Below are positions 1-24,250 of a DNA stretch of 24,763 nucleotides, piece after piece. The DNA comes from a virus, in IMG/VR virus record IMGVR_UViG_3300042465_006949, positions 1-24,763 of that record; one strand, given 5' to 3'. How positions within the stretch are numbered: position 1 is the stretch's first letter; every line of letters begins with the position of its first letter. The notes under the pieces were generated by a model that did not search any database, was not told the origin of the DNA, and saw only the letters and a list, made by a program, of their open reading frames with translations. Position numbers and translations under genes: made by a program.

Positions 1-3000
1 TTTCATATTCATCTTTTATTTTTTGTATAGATGTTGTTAAGTCTTCTTGTATTTTTGCTGAAGCTTCTTTTACGGTTTTTCCAGCAAATGGAGCTAAGTC
101 TGGATCTCCTGGAGCAGCATAATTCGGGACAAATCCACTAGCAGCACCATACATCATCGGATTAGCTCCTTCTCTTCTTGCGCGGTTAATTCCTTGGAAT
201 CCACCAGATGGCTCATCGCGACGATTGGCGACCATTAAACCCATTGGGTTCATGGCGTTTTTTAACGATGAATTTTTGTCTACATAAATTTGTGATGCTG
301 GAACTCCAGCAGCCATTTCACGACCAACGGCTTCTTTGAGAGGATCTGCAAAGTTAGGAATATAACCAGAAGCGGCAGTTTTTTGAGATGCTTGTCTCGC
401 CATTATTTGTCCAATGATACTTCTCGCTGGATCAGTGACATTAGCAGCTCCGACATCAATCGCGCCAATTCTACCTCCCGAAGCCGCAATCTGACGTAAT
501 ATTGAAAATGCGCCCACAGGATCGCTGGGGAAGTTTTGCATTCCATTTATTGAGTCTTGGGCGTTCTTATTAAGAGTATAGTTGGAACCGTGGAAATCAC
601 CAATCTGAAGACCTCTGGCTTTAAAAGCTGCAAATAAAACTTTTTGACCAAAATCACTTGCTTTTTGTGAACCAAGTGCTATTCGTGCAAGAGGATCAGA
701 AACAACTTCTTTTCTAATTGCTTTCTTTCTTTTTGAATCTTCAAAACTAGAAAGATTCTTTGGACCAAAAACACCTGGGATATTAGCGTATTTATTTACA
801 AACTCCGATGTAAGCCATTCAGCTTCAATTGATCTCGAAGGGATATAGTTTTTGAACTTCTTGACACCGACATCTGTTCCCTCTTTATTTTTGCCAAGTC
901 TAAAAAACGTGCCAGATGCGCCGTCACCCATCTCCCTTGATTTAGATACAAAATTAGGAATATAACCACCAGCAGCTTGAATTAAATTAAATCTTGCTGA
1001 TTTAGATTTGACATTGCCAAGAAAATCAAATTGATTTAATGGCGCGTATTTTGTTCCTTTTAATTGTTTTACGCTTCTCAAATCTCCTTCTGCTGGGGAT
1101 GTTCTGCCAGATCTTCTCGCTAAGATTTCAAGATTTTTTGCGTAAAGATAAGAAACTTTTCCACCAGAAGCGTTCACTGCTGCGATTATAGATTCTAATC
1201 CTTTAGACATTCCTCCTCCTTTTGCGCGAGCAGCACCAGATAAAATATCTATTTCTGTTGCTTTAGCTACATCATCTATTCCAGATAAGAATTGTCCACT
1301 TCTTCCAGCGAAGGTTGATTTACCAGAACCAGCAGGACCAATGATCAAATTCTTTTTAACTTTAGAAGCAAGAATACTATTCAATGTAGCGCCTTTATCT
1401 GGAGCGAGTCTATCTGAATCGTAAATATATTTCGCGAAGTTTGGAATATAACCGCCAGAAGCAGTAGAAATTGATTTATCTTTAGGTAGATATTTGATTA
1501 CTTGGTCGATGTATGAATCTTTTGATTTTCTACTGTTTTTAAAATCTGCAAAGTCATACCCCTTACCCCCAATTCCGAAAATTGTTTCTAATATTGTTCT
1601 TGATCGTTCTCCCCCTTCTTTAAAATCAATATCAAGCGATCCACCTTCTTGAAAATTCCTACCCTTTGCTTCAGCAACTTTATTAACAATACCTTCGAAT
1701 AATGCTCCTTTAAGAGCGCCAAATGCGCCAGGTCCACCTTTTTCTAGCAAATTTTTTATATTTTTTGAAGAAAGATCACTGGTATCATCTAATTGTATTC
1801 CTGGTTGTATTCCGCTTAGTATATTAAACGCTGCTTCAGAAAGCCCATCACTTAATGACTTATCAATTTTACTTATTTTTGAAAACCTAATTTCATCTGT
1901 ATCGGACAAATTTTCTTGAATACCCGCAATACCTCCAACGAATCTATCATAAATTTTTCCACCAACTTTTCTTTTTTCTTTAAAAGCAACATTTAGACCA
2001 CTAGAATTATATGGACTATTTTGAGGAATAAGCATTACCGCCTTATTGAAACCTGCGTTAGCGTCGTAAACGCTTTCTCCTTTTTTTAATTCTTTAGAAT
2101 CCCTCTGCTTTTCGACTGCGGATATAGGGATTGCTTGGCTTGTTAGGTTTGTACCATTTTGCGATATATTGAATGCATTTTTTGTTTTTTCATCAACCCA
2201 TTGAACTTTAGATCCTTTATACGTGCTTTCAATTTTTTTGAAGATTTCATCGTATGATTCATCTCCTTGAAATCCTATGGATTGCAAAATGGTTGATGCA
2301 CCCAGACCTTTAGGCTTTCTTTGTCTATCAGCCTCATTTACAAAATTAGGAACAAACCCCCCAGCAGCTCCTATCTTCTTCGCGCCAGATGGCAATCCCA
2401 TAGATTGAACCATTCGTCTATTAAACACAGCGCTGCCGCCACTTCCATTGAAATTAGGTACAACGTACTCTCCAGTATGAGCGACCATTGTCCCCTTTTT
2501 ACCGCCGCCAAAATTAAAGTTTGGCATTACTACTGGTTTATCACCTGAGCGAGCGCCACCTACCCCTTGTTTAATAGCCGAGCTTTCTTTTGCAACTGCT
2601 GGCATATAACCACCAGCACTATTACCACCAAGACGCAAACCAGAACTCGTCGCTCTTCCTCCGACATTATAAAGTGGCGCTGCTAATCCAGAAGAAATAG
2701 TAGAACTTCTTCGTAAAATAGCTTCCTGCTCTATTAAAGCGGCGGTAATTGCTCTTAATTGACCAGCTCTATTGCCTTCTAATCCAAATAATTTTTGCTG
2801 AAGATCGACGTTCCTCGCTAAAATCTGAGAAATTGCTCCCTCAATATTTTGAACTTCTTTTGCAGCTTTACCGATGCCAAAGAAATTCTTTAAACTTGCA
2901 AATCCGAATTGAACTAAATCTTTAGAAAGTTTAAGAATAATCGCGCCAAATAATATTAATCCTGGACCAGCTAAGAAGCTTCCAAGACCCTTTACTAATC

Positions 3001-4252
3001 CTCGAACTAAATTGCCTAATCCGCTTTCTTCTCCTAAAACTTTTTGAATTCCTTCAAGTAAACCATTAAAAAATCCTAAAACATTTTTCAAACTATCTGT
3101 AACACCTATTTCGCCGAGTTTAGAACCAAGCTGTTCAGCGCTAACCGAAACCTTATTAATTAAAGCATCTAGTGTTGTATTAAGAATTATATTTTTTTCA
3201 TAAGCTGAGTTTCCAGCACCAGCGGCTGCTTTCAACGCCTCTGCGGTTACAGATGATTCAGAAGAAAGATCTTTTAAAGACGCTAAAAGTTTATCTAACT
3301 GGAAAACACCTCCTAGTTTTTCAGAAATGTTTGCTTGTTCAATCTGAGAGAAACCACCTAATTTATCAGCTAAATTTTGTAATACCTTTAATGCTGGTAA
3401 GACATTTCCTTCTAAATCTGTTACTTGTACTTTCATGTCTTGAAGATCAGTCAAAACATCTTTTCTTTGAATTCTGGCAAAAATTGTTTTAAAACTGTTT
3501 CCGATGACTGCCCCACCTCTAGCAGTTCTTTCTTGAACTGCCGTAATAAGAGCGGCTAATTCATCAAATGAAACACCAGCTTGTTGAGCAACCGATGCAG
3601 ATCTTTTAATGCCTTCAATAAGATCTTTTTCTGAAACAGCAAATTTTTGAGAAACGGCGACAACTTTATTAAGAATTTCTGCCGTTGTAATACCAGAAGA
3701 TTTAAACGAGTTAAAAGCTGCTGTTAAGCCTTCAACAGACTGAGCGGCATCTAATCCAGAAAGTCGAGAAAGGATTAAAGCATCATTTAATCGAATAAGT
3801 GTATCTTCTGCGTCTAAACCTTGACGGGCTAATTCTAATGCACCATTCGCCACTTCATCAAATGATTTACCTGTATTTTTTGCTACATTGAAAATATCTT
3901 GACCGAATTTATCCAATTCAGCACTGCTTTTGTTCAAAACAGAATTAATTTCAACGAGACTTTTTTCAACTTTAATAGTGCTTGTCACTAGACCTACCAT
4001 CGCTGCTGACACTCCAGCAATAATACCAGCAGAAGCTCCGAACGCTAAAACGCGAGCGTTAGCCGCCGCCATAGATTTTGAGAATTCATCAGCTTGACCA
4101 GTGATTCTTCCAAGTGGCTGGCTTAATGCATTGATTTGTTTAGAACTCGTTCCTAGATTAATTTGTGTAGAATTACCTACGCGCTTCATTGCAGCGGCGA
4201 TACTTTGCTCCAATCCAACTTGAGTTACTGGTAATTGAATAGACTGTGACAT
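1..4252 (-). CDS. Tail tape measure protein (TP901-like core) with embedded enzyme-like domains; C-terminus beyond window
   Basis: The frame opens at an ATG (4252-4250) and stays open to base 1, giving at least 1417 residues, so the end is missing. Residues about 100-330 match the TP901-type tape measure core (helical, with VAKNTGKSFDEVANGALELA and ARGGAVIGNSFKTIFARIQ). Hydrophobic helices lie near residues 70-90 and 423-441. Tape measure proteins set tail length inside the tube and pass into the cell on infection. From residue 545 on the protein is unusual: a motif G-[YF]-[IV]-P-N-[FY] recurs at about 545 (degenerate), 591, 629, 931, 1093, 1293 and 1370. Between copies are a nuclease-like region (core 849-922), a P-loop region (Walker A 972-979) and a kinase-like region (1103-1292). 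It lies downstream of two putative chaperone genes, as is usual for tape measures. The start has a purine-rich AGGAAAAAGGAAC leader and a GTGTAA motif 22 bases upstream. The core call is secure; the enzyme domains rest on motif reading. Confidence 0.92.
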   Translation of the reverse strand, partial: MSQSIQLPVTQVGLEQSIAAAMKRVGNSTQINLGTSSKQINALSQPLGRITGQADEFSKSMAAANARVLAFGASAGIIAGVSAAMVGLVTSTIKVEKSLVEINSVLNKSSAELDKFGQDIFNVAKNTGKSFDEVANGALELARQGLDAEDTLIRLNDALILSRLSGLDAAQSVEGLTAAFNSFKSSGITTAEILNKVVAVSQKFAVSEKDLIEGIKRSASVAQQAGVSFDELAALITAVQERTARGGAVIGNSFKTIFARIQRKDVLTDLQDMKVQVTDLEGNVLPALKVLQNLADKLGGFSQIEQANISEKLGGVFQLDKLLASLKDLSSESSVTAEALKAAAGAGNSAYEKNIILNTTLDALINKVSVSAEQLGSKLGEIGVTDSLKNVLGFFNGLLEGIQKVLGEESGLGNLVRGLVKGLGSFLAGPGLILFGAIILKLSKDLVQFGFASLKNFFGIGKAAKEVQNIEGAISQILARNVDLQQKLFGLEGNRAGQLRAITAALIEQEAILRRSSTISSGLAAPLYNVGGRATSSGLRLGGNSAGGYMPAVAKESSAIKQGVGGARSGDKPVVMPNFNFGGGKKGTMVAHTGEYVVPNFNGSGGSAVFNRRMVQSMGLPSGAKKIGAAGGFVPNFVNEADRQRKPKGLGASTILQSIGFQGDESYDEIFKKIESTYKGSKVQWVDEKTKNAFNISQNGTNLTSQAIPISAVEKQRDSKELKKGESVYDANAGFNKAVMLIPQNSPYNSSGLNVAFKEKRKVGGKIYDRFVGGIAGIQENLSDTDEIRFSKISKIDKSLSDGLSEAAFNILSGIQPGIQLDDTSDLSSKNIKNLLEKGGPGAFGALKGALFEGIVNKVAEAKGRNFQEGGSLDIDFKEGGERSRTILETIFGIGGKGYDFADFKNSRKSKDSYIDQVIKYLPKDKSISTASGGYIPNFAKYIYDSDRLAPDKGATLNSILASKVKKNLIIGPAGSGKSTFAGRSGQFLSGIDDVAKATEIDILSGAARAKGGGMSKGLESIIAAVNASGGKVSYLYAKNLEILARRSGRTSPAEGDLRSVKQLKGTKYAPLNQFDFLGNVKSKSARFNLIQAAGGYIPNFVSKSREMGDGASGTFFRLGKNKEGTDVGVKKFKNYIPSRSIEAEWLTSEFVNKYANIPGVFGPKNLSSFEDSKRKKAIRKEVVSDPLARIALGSQKASDFGQKVLFAAFKARGLQIGDFHGSNYTLNKNAQDSINGMQNFPSDPVGAFSILRQIAASGGRIGAIDVGAANVTDPARSIIGQIMARQASQKTAASGYIPNFADPLKEAVGREMAAGVPASQIYVDKNSSLKNAMNPMGLMVANRRDEPSGGFQGINRARREGANPMMYGAASGFVPNYAAPGDPDLAPFAGKTVKEASAKIQEDLTTSIQKIKDEYE
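377..946 (-). other. Protein-kinase/APH-like segment inside the tape measure protein
   Basis: Residues 1103-1292 show the ordered landmarks of a kinase fold. There is a glycine-rich loop GDGASGTFF (1109-1117) and a VGVKKF strand giving the ATP-binding lysine (K1131 or K1132). Acidic candidates for the helix C partner are E1143 and E1145, and a hinge-like strand IRKEVV lies at 1179-1184. A catalytic loop GDFHGSN (1218-1224) has the D-x-H-x-x-N spacing of aminoglycoside-phosphotransferase/RIO-type kinases. A metal-binding IDVG (1265-1268) stands in place of DFG. The segment is bounded on both sides by G-Y-I-P-N-F motifs. Residues and order are seen directly; kinase activity and target are inference. 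Confidence 0.65.
977..1429 (-). other. P-loop kinase-like segment inside the tape measure protein
   Basis: Residues 942-1092 contain a perfect Walker A, GPAGSGKST (972-980), after a hydrophobic strand KKNLIIG. An acidic pair (IDD) follows, then a strand KVSYLYAK and an arginine-rich stretch LEILARRSGR resembling the lid of small nucleotide or zeta-toxin-type kinases. G-Y-I-P-N-F motifs bound it at 931 and 1093. At about 150 residues it is small but complete enough for a minimal P-loop kinase. Zeta-like toxin, nucleotide kinase or a degenerate ATPase are all possible. Confidence 0.6.
1463..2338 (-). other. PD-(D/E)xK-nuclease-like segment inside the tape measure protein
   Basis: The stretch between the motifs at 629 and 931 spans about 290 residues. 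Its C-terminal part has the element order of a PD-(D/E)xK nuclease: helix GALFEGIVNKVAE (E853), an acidic strand SLDIDF (D874, D876), a strand YDFADFKNS giving D903-x-K905, then helix SYIDQVIKYL. The first 200 residues (640-845) match nothing I recognise. The assignment rests on spacing and on a D-x-K rather than E-x-K variant, so it is tentative. Confidence 0.4.
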
Positions 4253-6036: not shown

Positions 6037-6324
6037 TTATTTAAATATAAAAGAAACTCGATAGTTTTCCATTTCATCCGCAAAATTTCTTAAAGATTCG
6101 TTGCCGCCATCAAGTATTCTTTTGCGAATCCAATTGAGTTTATTGTTATCGAAGTGATTCGCGGCAGTAATAATCACATGATATTGCTCTGGAATTAGTT
6201 CGTAAAGTTTGTTATAATGAAAGTCGTGATCCGCTTTCATGTCCTCCAAAATTTTTAAATAATTCTTAAACAAATTAGTTACTTCTTTTTTGTTTTGCCG
6301 TAGTAGGTATTGGTTAGCTTCCAT
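6037..6324 (-). CDS. Small hypothetical phage protein
   Basis: A 95-residue protein, predominantly helical and charged, with no recognised domain (motifs such as LFKNYLKILEDMKADHDFHY and NKLNWIRKRIL). It is the first gene of the leftward tail block, six bases before the next gene, and starts 40 bases from the divergent gene at 6365. Its position ahead of the putative chaperones suggests a tail-assembly role, but the sequence does not show one. The start lies after TATTAAATAGATAA, without Shine-Dalgarno or GTGTAA motif. Confidence 0.7.
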   Translation of the reverse strand: MEANQYLLRQNKKEVTNLFKNYLKILEDMKADHDFHYNKLYELIPEQYHVIITAANHFDNNKLNWIRKRILDGGNESLRNFADEMENYRVSFIFK

Positions 6325-6350
6325 TTATCTATTTAATAATAGAAAAAAAA

Positions 6351-6356
6351 GTGTAA
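6351..6356 (+). promoter_or_regulatory. GTGTAA motif at head of the rightward connector/tail block
   Basis: The plus strand reads an A-tract, then GTGTAA, then 8 bases to ATG 6365. The match in sequence and spacing to the minus-strand copies upstream of 9992, 16384, 23388 and 24250 is the best evidence that the motif is functional, since it occurs here on the opposite strand at the first gene of a block. Confidence 0.65.
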
Positions 6357-6364
6357 ATTTCAAT

Positions 6365-6823
6365 ATGCCGAGCTTAATAAATCAAAAAGTCATGGATAAA
6401 GTGATCAGTAAATTCGCTGATCTACATGATACATTTTCCCGCGAAATTACTGTTTATAAAAATGCTAAAAGAGTCGCAATAGCGAGTTCGCCTTCATTTA
6501 ACGCTATTTATGGTAACTCTGGAGCGACAAATACATCTGAATATCAAACAGTTTCCGCAACATTTTCGGCTCGTATTTACTATCTTAAAATGGATGAAGA
6601 ATTTTTTTCAAATTATTCCGCTGAAACTGAATCTCAAAATAAAATCATTATGCCAAATGGTTCTGTTAAAATTGTCGTTGATCCTCAAGGATATTTGTTT
6701 ATCAAAGAAGCTCGCAAAGTTGAATTTGACGGCATTACCTTTTCTATTCGTAGCGATGGCAATCCAATTGGTTTGTTTAGCAATCAATACTATGAATTCT
6801 TTTTAACACCTATTGATGAGTAA
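6365..6823 (+). CDS. Putative head-closure/neck protein
   Basis: A 152-residue protein starting MPSLINQKVM. The frame is open further upstream to 6290, but that extension would run through the divergent promoter region, and ATG 6365 has the GTGTAA motif exactly 8 bases before it. The C-terminal half reads as a beta barrel: a strand with GSVKIVVDP, then GYLFIKEARKVEFDGITF and a final GLFSNQYYEFFLTP. This resembles small head-closure or stopper proteins that cap the connector, and the gene leads a connector-to-tail-tube cluster. Family assignment is from fold impression and position; the gene itself is secure. Confidence 0.8.
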   Translation: MPSLINQKVMDKVISKFADLHDTFSREITVYKNAKRVAIASSPSFNAIYGNSGATNTSEYQTVSATFSARIYYLKMDEEFFSNYSAETESQNKIIMPNGSVKIVVDPQGYLFIKEARKVEFDGITFSIRSDGNPIGLFSNQYYEFFLTPIDE

Positions 6824-6828
6824 TAAAA

Positions 6829-7425
6829 ATGGCTAATGTAATAATTCCACAATCTGTTTTGAAAAAAGCTCGCAAAGACTCTGCAAAGATTTTAAAATTG
6901 CGCGTTTATAACGCTATTCAAAAAGAATTTATGATCATAAAAGAGCAAATGATTCGCGATTTTTTGAATTTACCAGTAACCCAAGAGATTTCGGGGGGAT
7001 CAGACTCACCAAACATTTCTGGGACTTTATCTGGGGACGGCAATCTTTTCGGATTTATAGGTTTTGATAAATCAGATAAACCCATAGAACCTATTTTAGA
7101 TCTTCTAGAATCTTCTTTTATTACTTTTCGAGAAGGCTCTGATTACGTTGCCACAATTACCATACCTTCAGCGGCATCTATTTTTAATGCCACGCCAATG
7201 CCTTGGGCATCTGGTCGTAGCTGGGCAAAAGGTATTGAAAGCGGTATTTCTGGTCTTGGATTCTATATTGGTAAATCTGGAATCGGAAGATCTGACGCTG
7301 GTATACAGTCAACAAAAAAAATCAAGGGCGGTACGTTTAAAAATACCGCCTATATATCTACTTTTATGCAAAAGTATATCAAACAATTTTCTTCTATTAC
7401 ATCATCACAACTTAATATAAAATAA
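6829..7425 (+). CDS. Putative neck or tail-completion protein
   Basis: A 198-residue protein five bases after the preceding gene, ATG preceded by GTAATAAAA. The N-terminus is a basic amphipathic helix (LKKARKDSAKILKLRVYNAIQ), then a Gly/Ser-rich segment (62-75) and a mixed C-terminal half containing ATPMPWASGRSWAKGIE and GLGFYIGKSGIGRSD. Such a helix-plus-barrel layout and the neighbourhood (after a closure-like gene, before a terminator-like gene and the tail tube) fit a minor virion protein of the neck. No specific family is recognised. Confidence 0.75.
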   Translation: MANVIIPQSVLKKARKDSAKILKLRVYNAIQKEFMIIKEQMIRDFLNLPVTQEISGGSDSPNISGTLSGDGNLFGFIGFDKSDKPIEPILDLLESSFITFREGSDYVATITIPSAASIFNATPMPWASGRSWAKGIESGISGLGFYIGKSGIGRSDAGIQSTKKIKGGTFKNTAYISTFMQKYIKQFSSITSSQLNIK

Positions 7426-7426
7426 C

Positions 7427-8275
7427 ATGATTGAACAATTCCAACATAAAGCAACAAACTCCTTCATGCTGTGGTTTGATAACTACCTGCTCAAAAAAGG
7501 TGAAGCCTATTCCAATAAAAGCGGGGTATTTTATTACTATGCTGATGATCGACTCGATGACCGTTTCAAAGCTTTCGGCAGTCCATATAAACAATGGGTA
7601 AATGATTCATCTATAAGTGGAGCAGTTATTCCATCTGGAGTTTACATCAGTGGCAATTTTCAAACACGAAATTCTGGACTTCTTTTAGATTTCACCAATG
7701 GTCGAGCTTTAATTAGTGGCGCAGCTTCTACAACTACCGTTTCAGGCTCTTTTGCGGTAAAGGATTTCAATATTTACTTTACTAATGATAGCGAAGAAGA
7801 TTTAATCGTAGATAAAAAATATATACCCAACTCTCGTATTTTTTCGGAGGCAATATCTTATATTGAACCATATGATAATGTTGTTCCAGCGATTTTTCTA
7901 TCTAGTCAGTCAATAAATAATACTCCATTTTCTTTCGGCGGGGAAGATACTACTAAAATCCAAATGAAAGCGGTAGTAATATCGGAGAACTCTTATCAAC
8001 TCGACGGCGCAATGTCTGTTTTTGCAGACAGTTTAAATGAGGTTTTCCCAAGCATACCATTTTCAGGCAATCCTACTACTGAATATGGTGATATTAAAAA
8101 CGGTTCATATTCTTATGATTCATTAAAAAATCAATACAGTAGCGAACCATTATTCTTTATCGAAGATGTCGTGACATCTAAACTAAGCGATAAAGCGAGA
8201 AAGACCTTGGCAAACGATCTATTTGTTGGCTTTATTGATTTTGAGATCCACCAACAAAGGAATCCTCGTTCATAG
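7427..8275 (+). CDS. Putative tail terminator/tail-connector virion protein
   Basis: A 282-residue protein starting one base after the previous stop. The N-terminus (residues 1-45) holds FQHKATNSFMLWFDNYLL and YYYADDRLDDRF. The middle is a beta-rich Gly/Ser region (65-115: GVYISGNFQTRNSGLLLDF), and the C-terminus returns to helix (SKLSDKARKTLANDLFVGF). Its place just before the tail tube gene is where tail terminator or completion proteins usually lie. A clear family is not recognised; virion localisation is an inference from the operon. A T-rich non-coding stretch of 53 bases follows before the tail tube gene. Confidence 0.7.
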   Translation: MIEQFQHKATNSFMLWFDNYLLKKGEAYSNKSGVFYYYADDRLDDRFKAFGSPYKQWVNDSSISGAVIPSGVYISGNFQTRNSGLLLDFTNGRALISGAASTTTVSGSFAVKDFNIYFTNDSEEDLIVDKKYIPNSRIFSEAISYIEPYDNVVPAIFLSSQSINNTPFSFGGEDTTKIQMKAVVISENSYQLDGAMSVFADSLNEVFPSIPFSGNPTTEYGDIKNGSYSYDSLKNQYSSEPLFFIEDVVTSKLSDKARKTLANDLFVGFIDFEIHQQRNPRS

Positions 8276-8302
8276 TTTTTTTTTCTCTTTTTTTTATTGT
8301 TG

Positions 8303-8308
8303 ATGTAA
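8303..8308 (+). promoter_or_regulatory. Possible variant (ATGTAA) of the GTGTAA motif before the tail tube gene
   Basis: The 53-base gap contains T-tracts, then TTGATGTAAAG, then 20 bases to ATG 8329. It differs from GTGTAA by one base, and the distance is close to the 22 bases seen for the tape measure gene. It may give this abundant product its own transcript, but one mismatch in AT-rich DNA is weak evidence. Confidence 0.25.
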
Positions 8309-8328
8309 AGAAAGTAAAGATAACACTT

Positions 8329-9441
8329 ATGGCAAGAAATCGAATTATTTATCAATCGGAAGGCGTATACATCAGCAAAGAAGCTACCTCTACAGGTAGC
8401 GGTGATCACGCCCAGCTCGCTCGCGTTCAGTCAGCAAACTACAATTTCAACATCGCTCGTCAGGATGTTAACCAATATGGTGAGCTTGCGCGTATCGACT
8501 CTATCGTACTTGAATCTCCTACCGTGTCTTTTGACATGAGCTACTACATCACTGATGGGCAAAATGAAAGCGCTCTTGGTTTCTATGTTGCTACTGGCGC
8601 TCAAGCTTTTTCTCAGTTTCCATCTGGTCACGTTCAAGACGGAAGTGGAAGAAATCTTTATATTGTTACCAGTAGCGAAGGCACTGACCTTAACAACTTT
8701 ACTGGTGCATCCAGCTTGAGTGGTAAAGGTTGTATCGGCGTTGGTAACGCTTATCTCACCGATTACTCGATTGAATTGGCAGTAGGCAGTATTCCTACCG
8801 CAACCGTTAGCTTCGAAGGCTCCAACATGAATGCATTTACATTCAGCGGAACCAACTCTGGAACTTCAGTTGCTATCAACCAAGAGCTTGGAACTTCATT
8901 GGGCAGCACGATCCGTCTTAAAGAGCCTGACAGCTTCACTGGAGCTAACGTCATCACAGCTCTTCGCCCTGGTGATATCACCGTTAACTTTGGTATTTAC
9001 AGCGGCAGCGGTCTTATTTCTAAACTTGGTGGCAATGATGGCGTTCACCTTCAAAGCATGAGTTTGTCTCTGCCTCTTGGTAGAACTCCAATTGAGCGTC
9101 TTGGTTCTAAATTCGCCTACGCAAGAACAGTTGACTTTCCAGTAGTTTCCACCTTGACTCTCAATGGTGTTCAAAACGAAGTTGCTGGTGGAAACTTGGT
9201 TGACTTGGTTAATGCTAATCCTAAGCAAGATATCATCATCTCTGTTAAAAAACCTGGCTCTGATGTCCTTGCTGTTCAATACGTTGTAAAACGTACTCAG
9301 CTTGATTCTGCTAGTGTTTCTAGCTCGATTGGTTCGAACAAAACTGTTGACTTTACCTTCTCTACTCAAATCGGTGGCTCTAATGACACTGACAACGGTA
9401 TTCAAATGAGTGGTAGCTTTACAGAGACACCTTTCTCGTAA
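8329..9441 (+). CDS. Major tail tube protein (tail-tube-like)
   Basis: A 370-residue beta-rich protein, starting MARNRIIYQS. It has alternating strands such as DSIVLESPTVSFDMSYYITD (57-76), YLTDYSIELAVGSIPTATVS (145-164) and MSLSLPLGRTPIERLG (near 245), the pattern of phage tail tube subunits. The internal architecture recurs in the product at 23408-24250: a strand pair ending T-A-T-[VM]-S, then later a serine/leucine-rich strand with an arginine. It is the last gene of the rightward block and is followed by a strong terminator. Codon use is clearly different from the tape measure gene (many C-ending codons, CGT/CGC for Arg), as in the capsid gene, which fits a highly expressed structural subunit. 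Confidence 0.75.
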   Translation: MARNRIIYQSEGVYISKEATSTGSGDHAQLARVQSANYNFNIARQDVNQYGELARIDSIVLESPTVSFDMSYYITDGQNESALGFYVATGAQAFSQFPSGHVQDGSGRNLYIVTSSEGTDLNNFTGASSLSGKGCIGVGNAYLTDYSIELAVGSIPTATVSFEGSNMNAFTFSGTNSGTSVAINQELGTSLGSTIRLKEPDSFTGANVITALRPGDITVNFGIYSGSGLISKLGGNDGVHLQSMSLSLPLGRTPIERLGSKFAYARTVDFPVVSTLTLNGVQNEVAGGNLVDLVNANPKQDIIISVKKPGSDVLAVQYVVKRTQLDSASVSSSIGSNKTVDFTFSTQIGGSNDTDNGIQMSGSFTETPFS

Positions 9442-9512: not shown

Positions 9513-9992
9513 TTATAGGAAGGTATTATAATCAGCAATGGTTAACACACCGTCCACTTCTAATCCCCCCAACTGTAAAGGCTCAGACTGATACATGTTA
9601 TATTGATGAGCGAGCTTATCAATTTTGATTTCAGATTCTTCCGCCAAAGACTTGTATACTTTTGATACTTCGTTCTTGTTTGTAAAAGTAACGGAGCTAT
9701 TTCCATCGCGTAAGGAGAGAATATCAGAACCGTCTGTATTACCGACTAATCCTTTTAACGCATTGCGAGATTGTTTGCGGTAATAGTTCGACATATACAT
9801 CTCTTTATAAATAGCTTGAGACTCTTGATCTAGCGGAGCATTTGTCCCGCTGTAAGATGTATTGATGCGCGTATTCAACAGTCCCAAATTAGCATCGAGC
9901 CACGCTTCAATATAAGAGCGAGGTACGTTGCCAGTGTCTCCGTCGAATTCTGTTTGAAAAATTTTGGTTGCTAAACCACTTAATGTACTCAT
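9513..9992 (-). CDS. Putative head-tail connector (adaptor) protein
   Basis: A 159-residue helical protein, MSTLSGLATKIFQTEF at the N-terminus. SYIEAWLDANLGLLNTRI (27-44) and IYKEMYMSNYYRKQSRNALKG (62-82) are helices, followed by a short loop with SLRDGNSSVTFTNKNEVSK and a last helix EIKIDKLAHQYNMYQ. A helical bundle with a conserved RDGxxSVT segment is typical of connector/adaptor proteins that bind under the portal. It ends the leftward head block, just before the terminator. It has its own GTGTAA motif 8 bases before the ATG, so it may be transcribed separately from the gene before it. The family call is by resemblance. Confidence 0.65.
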   Translation of the reverse strand: MSTLSGLATKIFQTEFDGDTGNVPRSYIEAWLDANLGLLNTRINTSYSGTNAPLDQESQAIYKEMYMSNYYRKQSRNALKGLVGNTDGSDILSLRDGNSSVTFTNKNEVSKVYKSLAEESEIKIDKLAHQYNMYQSEPLQLGGLEVDGVLTIADYNTFL

Positions 9993-10000
9993 GTATTCTT

Positions 10001-10006
10001 TTACAC
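10001..10006 (-). promoter_or_regulatory. GTGTAA motif upstream of the connector gene
   Basis: The minus strand reads AAGTGTAA, then 8 bases (AAGAATAC), then ATG 9992. The motif lies directly after the stop codon of the preceding gene, so it has been fitted into a 14-base gap. Spacing is the same as for the rightward gene at 6365. Confidence 0.6.
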
Positions 10007-10456
10007 TTAGTTATCAAGCAGCTTCAATAATTGTTTGTGCTTAGGATTATTGTGATCAATTACAAACGACTGTACAGCGCTTGGCATAATGTTGCGGCGG
10101 CTATTGCGTGTATAAGCAGTAAACTCTCTAATAAGACTCTTCTTTAGAATTGGTTTTTCGTGATATGGATTAGTTCCAATTTTTGAAGCTAATTTCTGCA
10201 TATCTGATAAAGACATTTCTGCGAGGTTCTGTTCAAAAATTTCCAGTTCATTTGTGCCGAATGGACTAATTTGACTCACTCCCAGCAGCACTTCCAACTC
10301 TCTCATTTTATCAGTGAACTCTGGAGTTCCGACCAAGCCAGAAGCTTTCATTTCTTCGATCTCTTGAATTAGTGTTTTCTTACCAGTATTGGCGATTGAT
10401 TCAGAGATCTCTTCTTGAATCATGCCATTTGCTTCTTCTGTAATTTTTTCATGCAT
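10007..10456 (-). CDS. Hypothetical protein downstream of the capsid gene
   Basis: A 149-residue, largely helical, charged protein (residues 1-60 acidic, with LIQEIEEMKASGLVGTPEF; C-terminal third basic, with KKSLIREFTAYTRNSRRN). No family is recognised. It lies between two terminator hairpins behind the capsid gene and the connector gene. It is therefore probably virion- or assembly-related, expressed at a lower level than the capsid protein. The start ATG 10456 follows CTATAAAGT; there is no Shine-Dalgarno. Confidence 0.7.
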   Translation of the reverse strand: MHEKITEEANGMIQEEISESIANTGKKTLIQEIEEMKASGLVGTPEFTDKMRELEVLLGVSQISPFGTNELEIFEQNLAEMSLSDMQKLASKIGTNPYHEKPILKKSLIREFTAYTRNSRRNIMPSAVQSFVIDHNNPKHKQLLKLLDN

Positions 10457-10489
10457 ACTTTATAGTAATATTTAAATGTTAAATTTAAA

Positions 10490-16427: not shown

Positions 16428-19400
16428 TCAATCAACAAACATTGGTACGAATGTGGTTTGAGTAGCTGCTTCTGGAGTAGCCATCATATCGAAGTAAATA
16501 TTCATTAACCAGTTGCCCAAAACAAGAGCAGAGTAAGAGTCTTTCCTTGCTTTATCAGCGTTTCTTTGTTTCTTTAGGTTATAGGGTAGATCAAAAGATT
16601 GAGATCCATTGGCAGTGGTTGACACCTGTATCAATGCGCACTGGACTTTTGTAATGTCGATTGTATCTTTCAAATGTTCAATTAAGTCAATTTGTTTCGC
16701 GTAAGAATCTAGTTCTTCATTGTGTTTAGAAAATGTAATTTCATCAATTGGTATTGTCGCTGATTTTTGACGGGAATAATCATCATCAAGTGCAGATGCT
16801 GCAAACCAAATCTTTTTATGATCGAAAGCGGCTTGTAGTATTTCATTAGCATACCTAATCCACTGCGAGCTTGGCTTTCTCAGTATACATATTTTTTTAG
16901 ATTCTAAGTTGTATTGATTTCTGGCTGATCGCAAATCGGCACTGTAATTTTGTGGATCATCAAAATCAGAATCAATACATTGTATGTGGATTCCAGCTTT
17001 CTTAAAAATCTCACTTTCGTTACAAGAGTTGATAAACTGAACGCCACCGTTGTAGTCTCCTACAATCATTTTAATATTGAAATGCGTATAAAGATAGTGG
17101 AAATAAACAATATGCTTTTTCAAGTTTGCACCCGCCATAGCATAAGAATGAACTATTGTTCCTGATTTTTTCTCAGGATTTAATTTAATAATGTGTATCG
17201 CAAAATCATCAGAGCCTTCACTTTCTGACCAAGATGGGTCAAATGCCAAGATGTATTCGCTAGATTTATCGCCGACGACTTCTACCGCTTGCCCCTCTCC
17301 GTCTTGAACGGTGCAGAGAGCCATCTTGCTGACCTTAAAGTAGCCAGAGCTATCATCTGTGAATATAGAGCCAAATTCTCTTTGGAACTGAGCCTCGCTC
17401 ATAGTAGCTTTAGATTGATCCAAAAGGTTTTGATCATAAAGTTGTTTTGGAGCGCAGTCGTAACTCAAGTGCATAATTACTCGATGTGCGTTGTCTTGCT
17501 TAGATGGATTAAGAATCAAGTTTTCATATTGTTGATAAAGCTTATATAAATATTCGAATTTATACGAAGCGGAAGATAATCCTATAATTTTGTTGTGAGA
17601 CCATTTATATCTTTCATCCTCTGTCATTTTACCAGCATCAATCATCTTTGTTTCCAAATCGTACATTTTTTGGCGTTCCGTTGGATTTTCGACAACCGCC
17701 AAGAATGGAAGGATAACCTCGTTGATAATTTTTTCTGGCATCAAAAGAAGTTCGTCAATAATCATTCGTTGGAAACGGAATCCCCGCAATTTCTCTCCAT
17801 CTCCAAGTGGAAGAGCAATAATTTTGCTGCGACCGATCTCCATAACCCACTGGTCATTTGATTTGCTTACCTTCGTAATGCACTGAGATAACAACGCCGA
17901 TTTGGGGCTTTTTGCGATTTCTTCAATCTTGTTGAAGATCATTCTACTTTGACGGAAAGATTTGGATATGATACCGATATAAACCCCTTGATTCAGAATA
18001 GCATCCATAGCGGCGAAAATACCCGTTGTGAAAGACTTCGAGAGTCCCCTTGAATTGTGATGAACAATACCATTTCCGATATAGCATTCTTCGTTTTCTA
18101 CAGTGATATCTACAGATGTTACTTGGCAAGGTGTGATAGTTTTTACTACAGAAAATGATACTTGTTCTTTTTTGATTGAATCAATAATATCTTTGGCATT
18201 GTCCGAAAGACCATTTAGTTTATCAAATTCATTCTGCGATAAGTCGATTCCCCATTCTCCATTTTTTTGACAAATTTGCTTACGAGATCCCTCTGTTTTT
18301 AAGAATTGTCCGAATTTAGGAACCAGTTTGTTTTGATAGTTTCTTTTACTTGATCTATCAATGATCTTTTGAAGATTTTGTTTTTTATGGTAAACGACGA
18401 AGTCAATTTGATCTTGAAATTTTTGCAAGCTGTTAACATCTTTTGCCAATATCAAATCATAATAAGGAACTTCTTTGTGTTGTCCCGAAAATCGTAAATT
18501 AGATTCGATACCCAAGTTGTTTAAAAGCATTTTAATTTGTCGCAACAATTGCAGAGACGTACTCTTTAAGCCTACTTTGCTATTCCTGGGCTGATAAGAT
18601 GCGTATCCATCTGCGTCAAACAATCCGCCAATCAGAGCGCATAAATTTTCTTTTGTTGCGCCAAGTATTTGATCGCATATAATCTTATCTTTTGATTTTA
18701 GGGATTTATCCCAGCCGATTGATTCTAACGCTTTTACCAATTCTCTATTGAAGATCGAGTATTCATAAAAATTCAAGTTGGAGCTTCTTTGGCGAGCGCA
18801 CATTTTAAAATCATTAGCTTTGGTAAATTTTAAAATAGTGTCTTGAATTTCACCGTTCTCCGAGCAGTAATGGACACCACCTTGATTGAGAAATCCGTCG
18901 CCAATTACATAACCAAGCCAATAGAATAAGTGTTGTTTGTTTTTGAAGTTAAAATCTTTAAAAACATCCTCTTGACCCCAAACATCAGTTCCTAGCTTTA
19001 CTGGAACGATATCTCCCTTCTTGATATTTTGTATTTCTTCGAACTGGAATTGAAAGTCTCTAAATATAAGAGTCTTGTGTCCCATTTTTGCTTTGAACGA
19101 ATCTCCAGATTGTAAAGCGATTTCAAGTCCATCTTCCAATGGATTGATGCGCTTATCTGTTACTAAATTAAGTTGCTCGCGAGAACGAACCATTTCGCCT
19201 ACTTGAATATCTTTGATTTTTTTAAAGCCATTGCTCGACAAAACGTATTCATTCTCATCTAAACACCAAATGCCCAAAAAGTAATCAGTCTCCATCATTG
19301 CCTTGATTGCCATATGTTGGAATGGAAACAGTGTGATCCCAGAAATAAGTTCAGAAGTAAAAGATGGATTTTCTTTCAAGAACTTATACAAAAGAATTTT

Positions 19401-19499
19401 AGCCTTGTCTTCCTCAATATAACCTTTTGTTGCTAAGATTTCTTGATTTACATTTTCGAATTTTTTATGTAAAATTTGATGTCCTTTTTCCCAAGCCAT
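16428..19499 (-). CDS. Terminase large subunit (packaging ATPase/nuclease) interrupted by an intein
   Basis: 1023 residues: N-extein 1-78, intein 79-482, C-extein 483-1023; after splicing 619 residues, close to T4 gp17. It is the motor that pumps DNA into the prohead and cuts it. The spliced junction IW/SRGLSKSF is Walker A (a Ser replaces the Gly before Lys). Walker B is RMIIDE (D582, E583), and the coupling motif is near IGLSSASYK (639-647). The RNase-H-like nuclease half has FDPSW (D754), VGDYNG (D815) and RKDSYSAL (D987). It lies directly after the ERCC4-like gene (start two bases after its stop) and before portal. Start ATG 19499 follows ATTAAATAAAT. Confidence 0.95.
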   Translation of the reverse strand: MAWEKGHQILHKKFENVNQEILATKGYIEEDKAKILLYKFLKENPSFTSELISGITLFPFQHMAIKAMMETDYFLGIWCLDENEYVLSSNGFKKIKDIQVGEMVRSREQLNLVTDKRINPLEDGLEIALQSGDSFKAKMGHKTLIFRDFQFQFEEIQNIKKGDIVPVKLGTDVWGQEDVFKDFNFKNKQHLFYWLGYVIGDGFLNQGGVHYCSENGEIQDTILKFTKANDFKMCARQRSSNLNFYEYSIFNRELVKALESIGWDKSLKSKDKIICDQILGATKENLCALIGGLFDADGYASYQPRNSKVGLKSTSLQLLRQIKMLLNNLGIESNLRFSGQHKEVPYYDLILAKDVNSLQKFQDQIDFVVYHKKQNLQKIIDRSSKRNYQNKLVPKFGQFLKTEGSRKQICQKNGEWGIDLSQNEFDKLNGLSDNAKDIIDSIKKEQVSFSVVKTITPCQVTSVDITVENEECYIGNGIVHHNSRGLSKSFTTGIFAAMDAILNQGVYIGIISKSFRQSRMIFNKIEEIAKSPKSALLSQCITKVSKSNDQWVMEIGRSKIIALPLGDGEKLRGFRFQRMIIDELLLMPEKIINEVILPFLAVVENPTERQKMYDLETKMIDAGKMTEDERYKWSHNKIIGLSSASYKFEYLYKLYQQYENLILNPSKQDNAHRVIMHLSYDCAPKQLYDQNLLDQSKATMSEAQFQREFGSIFTDDSSGYFKVSKMALCTVQDGEGQAVEVVGDKSSEYILAFDPSWSESEGSDDFAIHIIKLNPEKKSGTIVHSYAMAGANLKKHIVYFHYLYTHFNIKMIVGDYNGGVQFINSCNESEIFKKAGIHIQCIDSDFDDPQNYSADLRSARNQYNLESKKICILRKPSSQWIRYANEILQAAFDHKKIWFAASALDDDYSRQKSATIPIDEITFSKHNEELDSYAKQIDLIEHLKDTIDITKVQCALIQVSTTANGSQSFDLPYNLKKQRNADKARKDSYSALVLGNWLMNIYFDMMATPEAATQTTFVPMFVD
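18054..19265 (-). mobile_element. Intein with LAGLIDADG homing endonuclease in the terminase large subunit
   Basis: Residues 79-482 (404) form a complete intein. It begins with Cys (CLDENEYVLSSNGFKKIKDI, the usual block A) and has a block B GHKTL with its His. It ends VENEECYIGNGIVHHN just before Ser483, giving the canonical His-Asn/Ser junction. In the conserved block F an E-E-C replaces the usual histidine region, so splicing kinetics may differ. Two LAGLIDADG motifs, WLGYVIGDG (TerL residues 194-202) and IGGLFDADG (290-298), keep both catalytic aspartates (D201, D297), so the endonuclease looks intact. The insertion is exactly at the Walker A motif, a favoured type of site for inteins. Confidence 0.95.
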
Positions 19500-20434: not shown

Positions 20435-21476
20435 GGTCTTTAGATATGCCGAGTATACGGGCTTTCCACTCCTCCATTCCCTCTAATCTATTAGCTTCTT
20501 CTGAGACTAATTGTTTTTGCATTTCTGCAATTTTGACCATATTATTACGTTCCTCTTCGTCTTGGAAGAATTGAACTAGAGCCAAAATAGAAGCATTTTC
20601 TTTTTGCTTATTCTGCATCCTGGAAGATCTGTCGCCTTGAAGTTTTTTAGTTAAATTTTCAATTCGTGTTTCGCACTGATGGTATTCGGAACTTTTAGCT
20701 TTGATAATCTCCGCGAGTCTCACACTCATTTCCTCCTGATCATTAGCAATATCGAACATATCGTTAAGTTTGTTCAGATGCTTACTAATCACTTCAAGAT
20801 TGATGATTTCTTTACATACGTTCATATAAAGGTTGATTTCATCGGATGTTAAATCTGGTTTATCCCAAGTTAGACGTATAAACTCATGTTCGAACAAATC
20901 CCTATCGTCCTTTACCGTATAATTATTCATAATTTTTACGAAACGTGAGTTATTAAGGTTTACGGTTAACTTATCCACGCAAATCCTGTGCTGGCGATTA
21001 ATCTTCTCTTCCTCAAAAACACTTCCAGTAGCATCGTTGATTTTTTTTACTACCCTACCCGCAGCTTTGGGAGCTACGTAGCTTGACAGCACAGAATCTG
21101 TGTCTTGAGATGGATTGTAGTCTGGATTTATTTCGCGCATGAGGGCAAAAACTGCCCTCTGTTCCATAGACAGTGGTTTGATTTCTTGTTTGGGAAATAA
21201 CAGTTCAGCAACAGCTAGTGAGGATAGACCAGCGTTTGCTTGGTCGATAATAAATTCCTTTTGTTGGGATGTGAAGACAATTCCTTCTTTTTTTTCGCGG
21301 CGAGCAGTATTGAACTTCATACCTGATGTCACCATGTATGATCTAACTTCTCTTCCTTCTTTCGAACGACCATCAAGTTGTGGATTATCAAACACATGTT
21401 TGACAATTTCATTCAAATCAGGATTCTTAGCGAAAGCATCTTGGACTTTCTGTTTCTGTTCTTCAGTTAAGCTCAT
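20424..21476 (-). CDS. Helical protein, candidate small terminase subunit
   Basis: A 350-residue protein without recognised catalytic motifs. The N-terminal 110 residues contain two helix-turn-helix-like stretches (LNEIVKHVFDNPQLDGRS near 21-38; FTSQQKEFIIDQANAGLSSL near 68-87). The middle is mixed, and the C-terminal 100 residues are strongly coiled-coil (IENLTKKLQGDRSSRMQNKQ; MVKIAEMQKQLVSEEANRL). DNA-binding N-terminus plus oligomerising helices and position two genes before the large terminase fit a small terminase subunit, but it is longer than typical. It overlaps the sigma-like gene upstream by four bases. The assignment is a positional guess. Confidence 0.6.
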   Translation of the reverse strand: MSLTEEQKQKVQDAFAKNPDLNEIVKHVFDNPQLDGRSKEGREVRSYMVTSGMKFNTARREKKEGIVFTSQQKEFIIDQANAGLSSLAVAELLFPKQEIKPLSMEQRAVFALMREINPDYNPSQDTDSVLSSYVAPKAAGRVVKKINDATGSVFEEEKINRQHRICVDKLTVNLNNSRFVKIMNNYTVKDDRDLFEHEFIRLTWDKPDLTSDEINLYMNVCKEIINLEVISKHLNKLNDMFDIANDQEEMSVRLAEIIKAKSSEYHQCETRIENLTKKLQGDRSSRMQNKQKENASILALVQFFQDEEERNNMVKIAEMQKQLVSEEANRLEGMEEWKARILGISKDHVI

Positions 21477-22162
21477 AATATGATATCGTTTTTAACAATG
21501 ATGTTTTGCACTTTTTCTTTTAGCATTTTTTTGAGATTTTTAATCTGTTTGTAGCCAGCGGTGCGATTTTTTTCTGAAGTTTTGTATCCCATGTATTTGG
21601 CGACATCGTCTTCTGAAGAATCTTGAAAAAATAACATCATATAAACTTGATAATGTTCACTAGAGAGTTCTTTTTTAAGTATTGCATTCAATTTTTCGAT
21701 TGATGCATCAAAATTAACACCAGAATCAGTAAATAAATCAATCTCTTGCTGATGGTTCTCCATCGCTAGTGGCATCTTTACACCATATCCTTGACGTTTC
21801 GACTTTGCCCACTTTGCATACAGTGAACACGAAGAGTTTTGTTGCCCCGATTGAGTAAGTAAGCATAAGTTATCTCCAAGATTATGTGGGCAAGACATAC
21901 ATGGTTTAACATAGTTCGTATAATTATTGCGTACTATGTTTTTAATTTGGTGAGAAGCTATCCTAGAAACCCAAGGTTCTAATGGTCGCTCTTGATCCCA
22001 CAAGTGCCATTTTTTAAAAATATGAATTTTAACAATTTGCGCTACATCCTCAAAGTCAAACCAGTTGATGGCTTTGAGCCTCCACTTGCCTTGATATTTA
22101 GAAACAACAGTGTCTATAATATGATAGCACTCCTCGTATGTCTTTTTCTTCGGCTCTTCCAC
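21473..22162 (-). CDS. Sigma-70-family (ECF-like) factor with Cys-rich insert, probable phage transcription factor
   Basis: A 229-residue protein. Residues 35-82 read as sigma region 2: FDFEDVAQIVKIHIFKKWHL and PLEPWVSRIASHQIKNIVRN, including the D-x-x-Q segment and W-V-x-R-I-A helix. Residues 88-112 hold CMSCPHNLGDNLC then C112, a likely zinc-binding insert. The last 60 residues (LSSEHYQVYMMLFFQDSSED, then VAKYMGYKTSEKNRTAGYKQ) look like region 4, a helix-turn-helix for promoter recognition. It would redirect host RNA polymerase to phage promoters, and the GTGTAA motif is a possible target. The GTG start (22162) directly abuts the stop of the zinc-ribbon gene. Fold call good; late-promoter role inferred. 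Confidence 0.75.
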   Translation of the reverse strand: MEEPKKKTYEECYHIIDTVVSKYQGKWRLKAINWFDFEDVAQIVKIHIFKKWHLWDQERPLEPWVSRIASHQIKNIVRNNYTNYVKPCMSCPHNLGDNLCLLTQSGQQNSSCSLYAKWAKSKRQGYGVKMPLAMENHQQEIDLFTDSGVNFDASIEKLNAILKKELSSEHYQVYMMLFFQDSSEDDVAKYMGYKTSEKNRTAGYKQIKNLKKMLKEKVQNIIVKNDIIL

Positions 22163-22656: not shown

Positions 22657-23388
22657 TTACACATGAAAATCAACTTCTTCTAGCTTTTTGACAATGAATT
22701 TCAAGATTTCGCTGCGAACAATATCTTCTTTGCTGAACATGAATGTTTGAATTCCTTGTTGTTTACTTTCTTGATCATTGAAAGCGTTGAGCATTGGTAT
22801 GAAGCCTGACTTGGCTCTTCCTATATCGCTCTGCATTGGATCGCCACAGATGATAATCTTCGAGCCTTCTCCAATTCTTGTAATCAGAGTAATAAGTTCT
22901 TTGGCTGAAAAGTTTTGCGACTCGTCTGCGACGATAATCTTGTTAGTCCAACTCGCGCCACGTAAAAAGTTGATTGGCACAGCACTGATTCTTCCTACTG
23001 TTTTAAGATGCGCCACATCTTGTGGTGCAACGATTTCCTCCAACTTATCATAGAGTGGCATCAAGAACGGGTCGAACTTTTCTGCGATATCTCCAGGCAA
23101 ACTACCAAGTCCCTTATCAGCGCTTTCAATGATGCTGCGAATGTAAATCAGTTGTTTATCAACGTCTTCAGACATCATTTCGATTGCACCGTAAAGTGCC
23201 ATGTACGTCTTGGAAGTTCCCGCCGCTCCAGATATAAAGATGATTTTGTTTTCGGGGTCGAGTATCATCCCCAGTAACTGCACTTGTTTTGCGGTTAGTC
23301 TGAAGTTCTTTTTCTTTATTTTTATTTTACTGGATTGATTCAAGCGAATTTCAACCGAGTCCGACTGACTAAATCTTTTTTTAGGCAT
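22657..23388 (-). CDS. phoH: PhoH-like P-loop ATPase
   Basis: A 243-residue protein with Walker A GAAGTSKT (54-61) after a KIIFISG strand, Walker B KIIVADESQNF (around 152-162; DE), and the PhoH-family segments RSIIESADKGLGSLPGD, FLRGASW and ICGDPMQSDIGR. It is typical in size for phage PhoH-like proteins, whose biochemical role in infection is not established; nucleic-acid-related ATPase/helicase activity is proposed for the family. The basic first 30 residues may contact nucleic acid. ATG 23388 has the GTGTAA motif 9 bases upstream. It begins after the tail-tube-like gene 23408-24250, so it may be the first gene of a transcript. Confidence 0.88.
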   Translation of the reverse strand: MPKKRFSQSDSVEIRLNQSSKIKIKKKNFRLTAKQVQLLGMILDPENKIIFISGAAGTSKTYMALYGAIEMMSEDVDKQLIYIRSIIESADKGLGSLPGDIAEKFDPFLMPLYDKLEEIVAPQDVAHLKTVGRISAVPINFLRGASWTNKIIVADESQNFSAKELITLITRIGEGSKIIICGDPMQSDIGRAKSGFIPMLNAFNDQESKQQGIQTFMFSKEDIVRSEILKFIVKKLEEVDFHV

Positions 23389-23407: not shown

Positions 23408-24250
23408 TTATACCAATGCTTCGTCAATAGTCACATCTGCCATCAAAATATTTGGTGGTGACACTGTGAGGTTTTGGGCAGTCAGTCTTCCGCGAGAAGA
23501 AACGGACAATGTTCCTGAAGGCAAAACGTATTCGCCAGATTCGTTTTTTAAATCAACAGAAAAAGAAGAACTTGCTCCAGACTCATTAATGAATGTTTTT
23601 ATGTTTGTTGCTTTGATTTGTAGCTGCTTTGTTGCTTCGTCCAAAAAGACGATGTTGGCGTTGCGCTTTGAGATACCATAAGAATAGGTTCTTTTTAAAT
23701 CAAGAGAGAAGGAAATGCTGGAGTGAATGTCATCTGAATAATTATCTGCCCCCGAAAGTACTGCAAAATGACCGTACGCGAATTTGTTTGTCATACCAGT
23801 TTCTCCTGTAGCTAGCCCCGAAATCATTGCCAAACCTGTGGGTGCATCGGTGCAAGTAAAGGATGTTGACATTGTCGCGGCTTGAAACGGCGCGATTTCT
23901 ATAGACAAACTGTCGAGATAACATCCACTAAACGTTCTCCCCCCGATTGTAAGATCTGTATTGCCTGTGCCTGTAAGATTCGCGAAAATGCCAGATCCGA
24001 AATTGTATGAATCAAGAGAAACATCGTCGCCGCCGAACTTATTACACAGTGGGAACGATAAGGTAATCTTGGTGTCTGTATTGCCAGCGACTCTCATTTC
24101 TGGAAAAGTATTTGGGGCAAGAGTTCTTTGACTGTTTAATTTCGCGCTGTGAGCTATCGAGACGCTGCTTGCAGGTGCGATGTAGCGTTTGCCTACAACA
24201 TCAAGTCGAGGCATAGAGACTGGTACATTTTCGTAGCGTAATACTGGCAT
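23408..24250 (-). CDS. Second tail-tube-like virion protein
   Basis: A 280-residue beta-rich protein, starting MPVLRYENVPVSMPRLDVVG. Its pattern parallels the tail tube protein at 8329-9441: a strand pair GCYLDSLSIEIAPFQAATMS (109-128) against YLTDYSIELAVGSIPTATVS there, and a later strand with SLDLKRTYSYGISKRNAN against LSLPLGRTPIERLGSKFA. So two divergent tail-tube-fold proteins are encoded, 90 residues different in length. This one might form the tail tip or baseplate tube rather than the main tube. The ATG at 24250 has the GGTGTAA motif 9 bases upstream and is the first gene of the leftward block. Fold by resemblance only. Confidence 0.65.
   Translation of the reverse strand: MPVLRYENVPVSMPRLDVVGKRYIAPASSVSIAHSAKLNSQRTLAPNTFPEMRVAGNTDTKITLSFPLCNKFGGDDVSLDSYNFGSGIFANLTGTGNTDLTIGGRTFSGCYLDSLSIEIAPFQAATMSTSFTCTDAPTGLAMISGLATGETGMTNKFAYGHFAVLSGADNYSDDIHSSISFSLDLKRTYSYGISKRNANIVFLDEATKQLQIKATNIKTFINESGASSSFSVDLKNESGEYVLPSGTLSVSSRGRLTAQNLTVSPPNILMADVTIDEALV

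Follow-up and report, generated by a model that had tools for sequence, protein, structure and literature searches.

Tape measure proteins (TMPs) of tailed phages are usually regarded as rulers, their length normally determining that of the tail, and exit the tail during DNA injection; some of them bear envelope-penetrating enzymes. Among described systems, the polyvalent proteins, i.e. large multi-domain phage proteins that are encoded near virion genes and predicted to be injected (Iyer et al. 2017, PMC5512222), come close to the TMP reported here. They unite domains of the kinds predicted for TMPs of the present group (nuclease, kinase, zeta-like kinase and GNAT), and some of their kinases do without a C-lobe, as does one of the modules below (PMC5512222). 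However, TMPs are mentioned nowhere in that paper, whereas here the TMP itself is the carrier and, unlike in polyvalent proteins, a short repeated motif bounds its cassettes. The Kinase-PolyVal family (PF18762) had no match in the viral record analysed or in three relatives.

Enzymes within TMPs are known as well: in Thermus phage P23-45, a virion RNA polymerase that works on pre-early genes is fused within a giant TMP and acts at genome entry (PMC10770324). This is one fixed N-terminal polymerase, reported with neither an exchangeable array nor a boundary motif. Polymorphic toxin systems, in turn, join a constant delivery part to recombining effector cassettes (PMC3482391), and a constant carrier with exchangeable cassettes is also what we find in the TMPs of the present phage group. 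There, the variable toxin domain is reported to be C-terminal, with further cassettes standing alone, whereas our TMP has an internal multi-cassette array. Effectors of contractile injection systems (Sle1/Tme) likewise couple a TMP-like delivery part to diverse functional domains, but belong to bacterial nanomachines rather than to a replicating phage and carry a single C-terminal domain instead of a motif-bounded array (PMC13277306, PMC11126660). Finally, a large survey of mosaicism in phage proteins left genuine recent mosaicism in TMPs unconfirmed (PMC10684548). Each element, namely TMP enzymes, multi-enzyme injected proteins, recombining cassettes and TMP-like effectors, is known separately; their combination in a phage TMP, as an internal array that is exchangeable and delimited by a motif, appears to be undescribed, no earlier account having been found in the open-access literature.

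The DNA analysed here is a 24,763-nt viral stretch (IMG/VR record IMGVR_UViG_3300042465_006949; hereafter, the window). Its minus-strand ORF 4252..2 runs off the window end and encodes a genuine TMP, just as the initial annotation had proposed: PF10145 matched residues 123-315 (E 2.7e-30; 106 bits vs a cut-off of 33.2), and many PHROG TMP families matched the ORF (best 4e-47). The window truncates a protein whose full length is 2874 aa (locus L003), as encoded on IMG/VR contig 3300042397_001747 (loci L002/L003), which is 100% identical in sequence, represents the same phage and carries the complete gene (Table 1). We consider it rather probable that this TMP is a polymorphic, injected array of exchangeable enzyme cassettes. 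For the wider proposal, that in widespread uncultured phages the TMP would be a motif-delimited multi-effector cartridge whose nuclease, kinase, acetyltransferase and ATPase cassettes are swapped and codelivered with the genome, the chances seem to us evenly balanced.

Relatives were collected by searches with the N-terminal core (43 loci) and the P-loop module (16 loci) as well as by a degenerate-DNA scan for the boundary motif (at least 120 stretches). The pooled set comprised at least 180 motif-containing ORFs of >300 aa, which dropped to 145 once near-duplicates had been discarded; between motifs, the set contains 255 modules measuring at least 60 aa. In tblastn searches of cultured phages, solely the TMP core was matched, and distantly (25-30% identity), while the P-loop, kinase-like and nuclease/RDEP segments had no relatives there; for the P-loop and kinase-like cassettes, searches of bacterial and archaeal genomes found none either.

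Table 1 Layout of the TMP gene and its cassette array (window coordinates; residues refer to the TMP)
Feature	Coordinates	Strand	Evidence
TMP gene, 5′ 1417 codons	2..4252	-	PF10145, PHROGs, full length in L002/L003
Conserved N-terminal TMP core, residues 1-630	2363..4252	-	Length nearly constant among relatives
Motif copy 1, GGFVPNF, residues 631-637	2342..2362	-	
Cassette 1, residues 638-932	1457..2341	-	
Nuclease-like core, residues 832-930, GxxFE853...D874...D903-x-K905, PD-(D/E)XK-like	1463..1759	-	Alignment, 110 distinct relatives
Motif copy 2, GGYIPNF, residues 933-939	1436..1456	-	
Cassette 2, P-loop module, residues 940-1094	971..1435	-	Alignment, AF2, Foldseek
Walker A GPAGSGKST, residues 972-980	1313..1339	-	
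Motif copy 3, GGYIPNF, residues 1095-1101	950..970	-	
Cassette 3, protein-kinase-like module, residues 1102-1294	371..949	-	Relatives, pattern test, dN/dS
Motif copy 4, SGYIPNF, residues 1295-1301	350..370	-	
RDEP closing segment, 70 aa, residues 1302-1371	140..349	-	Conserved
Motif copy 5, SGFVPNY, residues 1372-1378, array end	119..139	-	

The recurring motif that had initially been noticed between the domains is present in five copies, beginning at residues 631, 933, 1095, 1295 and 1372, and these form the exact borders of the three segments named at that time. Across 383 copies the consensus reads A-A-[GS]-G-[FY]-[IV]-P-N-[FY]-A, of which P and N were preset by the search pattern, and no mention of the exact motif was found in the open-access literature. 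We rejected the notion of a mere DNA-level repeat, as residues shared between copies used the same codon at a fraction of 0.55 vs 0.48 for random same-residue pairs. The motif is thus conserved mainly at the protein level, and may act as a hinge for cassette unfolding and refolding, or as a processing site. The array is inserted at a fixed point, TMP residue ~630, and ends with the RDEP segment, which is 70-90% identical among nearer relatives. In most relatives this segment forms the end of the array, and it too is exchanged, with borders at the motif (L046, 11300-11544).

Comparison of related TMPs revealed how readily the internal segments differ between otherwise similar proteins. The TMPs of L004, L005 and L007 share 84-86% identity with the window TMP in the core and 84-90% in the RDEP segment, whereas its three cassettes gave no BLAST match there; a profile did pick up a diverged nuclease-like core. 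Conversely, L046 is 38% identical to the window TMP in the core, 79% in the P-loop cassette and 84% in the RDEP segment. The DNA of L046 and L047 is 92% identical over 9977-10480, a block bounded by two consecutive motifs (9974-9994 and 10460-10480), with core proteins of 40% amino acid identity. Cassette order varies too: in L046, L049-L055 and others, the P-loop module precedes the nuclease-like core, and in L003, L047, L048 and L058 it follows. Among 134 dereplicated TMPs, 206 distinct breakpoints of DNA similarity were mapped, 59% of which lay no more than 6 nt from a motif (4.2% at random positions) and 34% inside it (2.8% at random positions); before dereplication, the result was the same. 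The cassettes are hence interchangeable units delimited by the recurring motif, the most important addition to the initial annotation and one that no lone sequence could have revealed. The breakpoints indicate modular units more firmly than crossover at the motif, because unrelated cassettes share the motif, and its role as the site of exchange is correspondingly the more tentative proposal.

The same region drives much of the variation in TMP length: in 62 complete TMPs the N-terminal part measures 629 ± 10 aa, the cassette region spans 219-1446 aa, and the length of the latter correlates with total TMP length (0.77). Given that TMP length sets tail length, the cassettes might be structural, i.e. 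enzyme-descended globular or filler pieces that sit in the lumen of the tail and adjust its length or the assembly of the TMP. We hold this to be unlikely, since conservation within the cassettes is highest at the active-site residues, which would be unexpected for filler, since cassettes are missing or replaced in TMPs with the 84-86% identical cores, and since the cassette region varies so widely next to an N-terminal part of constant length. Such a sporadic, exchanged distribution places the cassettes closer to conflict-related effectors than to a structural or housekeeping role.

Within cassette 1, the N-terminal part (residues 642-830) has just three close relatives, while iterated profile searches retrieved the nuclease-like core (832-930) from 130 of the 180 collected motif ORFs, where it is frequently the first cassette and in some cases is present in two copies. 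Examples of two cores in separate cassettes are L050 (943-1025 and 1162-1237 aa), L056 and L141. The residues on which a nuclease had been proposed (E853, D874, D876 and D903-x-K905) are all in place. An alignment of 38 sequences shows no variation at G, D874 and K905 and >90% conservation at F and E853, so that D874, and not D876, is the invariant Asp. Over 110 distinct sequences, conservation amounts to 100% for G, 90% for F, 95% for E (plus 4% D), 99% for [DE] before K, and 100% for K. The E...D...[DE]xK residues match the active-site pattern of PD-(D/E)XK nucleases. That part of the proposal stands, the catalytic residues being kept in relatives, whereas the domain itself drew no match among Pfam and PDB profiles and its AF2 model reached a pLDDT of about 40-70; a nuclease fold with catalytic activity is what the residues would suggest.

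Segments outside the three families named so far fell into 74 BLAST clusters, of which 71 include a sequence of at least 90 aa; because some clusters represent constant segments, there are somewhat fewer cassette types than clusters. Searches of 64 modules against Pfam, NCBIfam, PADLOC and PHROGs gave no confident family. Together with 82 more modules (146 scanned in total), two known enzyme families emerged, each between boundary motifs: a GNAT acetyltransferase cassette (L141:6135-7304; 20.9 bits vs the Pfam cut-off of 20.7) and a HATPase_c_3 cassette, i.e. a GHKL-type ATPase (L091:5045-6751; E 3.8e-5). These sister cassettes, as predicted from sequence, support reading the region as an enzyme array. 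The enzymes could nevertheless serve the phage rather than target the host, helping the TMP to mature, the DNA to be ejected or the envelope to be crossed. The presence of the nuclease-like core in so many of the collected PNF-motif ORFs would fit a near-core function, and the envelope-penetrating enzymes of other TMPs offer a parallel; however, the P-loop and kinase-like cassettes occur sporadically and are swapped between phages, which fits conflict-related factors and not a housekeeping step, and the 146 scanned modules included no recognisable peptidase or murein hydrolase. We give this explanation the same low probability as a structural role.

Cassette 2 bears out the earlier assignment of a P-loop domain. 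The module, with its Walker A sequence starting at residue 972 as quoted, recurs in about 20 TMPs, and in 16 aligned sequences the Walker A glycines, Lys and Thr are invariant, as are a D-x-D before Walker A and an R-R-x-x-R near the module end. The AF2 model was confident (pLDDT about 83-98 over most 10-residue blocks). In Foldseek searches with this model, zeta-toxin domain and polynucleotide kinase models ranked highest (prob 0.96-0.99, E >0.001), and PNKP, adenylate and guanylate kinases were retrieved from the PDB (prob up to 0.80, E >0.001). Matches to Pfam were confined to weak AAA hits, and those to PDB profiles to short P-loop/adenylate kinase stretches. The confident model thus confirms a P-loop fold of the nucleotide-kinase type for cassette 2, of a zeta-, polynucleotide- or adenylate-kinase-like kind, with E-values too high for assignment to one family. 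With dN/dS values of 0.05-0.25 for the P-loop module and 0.15-0.22 for the kinase-like module, both are under purifying selection.

Cassette 3 has relatives in L181, L182 (63% identity) and L183/L184 (51%), each between two motifs. The kinase residues originally listed (G1109, K1131/K1132, D1219-F-H-G-S-N1224 and D1266-V-G) are in place, and the Gly loop, VGVKK, D1219-x-H-G-S-N1224 and D1266-x-G are invariant in the four relatives at about 50-63% identity. As an ordered and spaced pattern, these landmarks hit the kinase modules alone among the 255 modules. The pattern was absent from all 1196 other ORFs (384,558 aa) and arose in 14 of 20,000 shuffled versions of the module. Only about 30 residues lie between D-x-G and the next motif, and cassette 3 therefore lacks the usual C-lobe. 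T7 gp0.7 shows a D-x-H-x-x-N ... D-P signature akin to that of cassette 3, but is a separate, early-expressed protein; the best local HHalign match to the T7 kinase falls on the catalytic loop without being significant (probability 0.24%). HHalign comparisons with E. coli UbiB and SrkA and with gp0.7 were not significant and no better than E. coli decoys, and a 65-locus T7-kinase family likewise gave no significant match. The kinase-like domain of the initial annotation hence holds as to its landmarks, whereas the module found no match in Pfam and PDB profiles and its AF2 model, built on an alignment of four distinct sequences, had a pLDDT of 38; we infer a kinase fold and catalysis from the landmarks. 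Less probable still than the two explanations above is that the kinase-like, and perhaps the nuclease-like, signatures are coincidental or mark inactive unrelated folds, with the P-loop module as the sole enzyme: this would explain why neither module has a profile, PDB or HHalign match and why the kinase-like model scores so low, but not why the landmarks are invariant in diverged relatives, why their ordered pattern is absent from the other ORFs, or why even the low-confidence model keeps the strand-strand-helix order of a kinase N-lobe.

We thus return to the injected array of exchangeable enzyme cassettes. The occurrence of several effector-type enzyme domains in one polypeptide is supported by the P-loop fold and by the GNAT and GHKL cassettes, and is suggested for the kinase-like and nuclease-like modules by their motifs. 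Loss of catalytic residues in homologues, which had been named as an argument against enzymatic cargo, is the opposite of what we observed, as these residues are conserved. In the mechanism we propose, the fixed N-terminal core (about 630 aa) and the C-terminal part would perform the tape-measure and injection work, and between them would lie one to six globular cassettes flanked by the motif, in the window phage a nuclease-like, a P-loop kinase and a protein-kinase-like cassette followed by the closing segment. Phages would swap cassettes at the motif in the fashion of polymorphic toxins. During infection, the TMP would exit the tail, and its cassettes might enter the periplasm or cytoplasm, where they could act early on components of the host or its defences, modifying or cutting them. 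Delivery is opposed by one obstacle, in that folded domains would need to pass through the narrow tail lumen. The original interpretation of an enzyme-delivering TMP is therefore partly supported, catalytic activity, arrival in the cytoplasm and action on host or defence components being its presumptive elements.

The internal TMP region behaves as a site of cassette exchange whose enzyme signatures are intact. Should the cassettes be delivered, tailed phages would gain a direct route for enzymes at DNA entry, ahead of phage gene expression, and the motif search would reveal a large, unrecognised pool of candidates for host takeover or counter-defence (about 70 sequence clusters). The array also hints at a natural design for putting cargo into phage tails.

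As to the genomic context, a plus-strand gene block (6290-9441; 177, 198, 282 and 370 aa) lies upstream of the TMP operon, and a PHROG search of its 198-, 282- and 370-aa products yielded no match. On the minus strand, the terminase large subunit ORF (16428-19499, 1023 aa) is probably interrupted by an intein, with matches to Intein_splicing (2.9e-9) and LAGLIDADG_3 (2.5e-14) before or within the terminase region. Further along the same strand are encoded a Sigma-70 region 2 protein, possibly a T4 gp55-like late sigma factor (21473-22162), a PhoH-like protein (22657-23388) and a tail tube protein (23408-24250). The T4-type terminase, the sigma-factor-like protein, PhoH and the tail tube suggest that the window derives from a large T4-like tailed phage.
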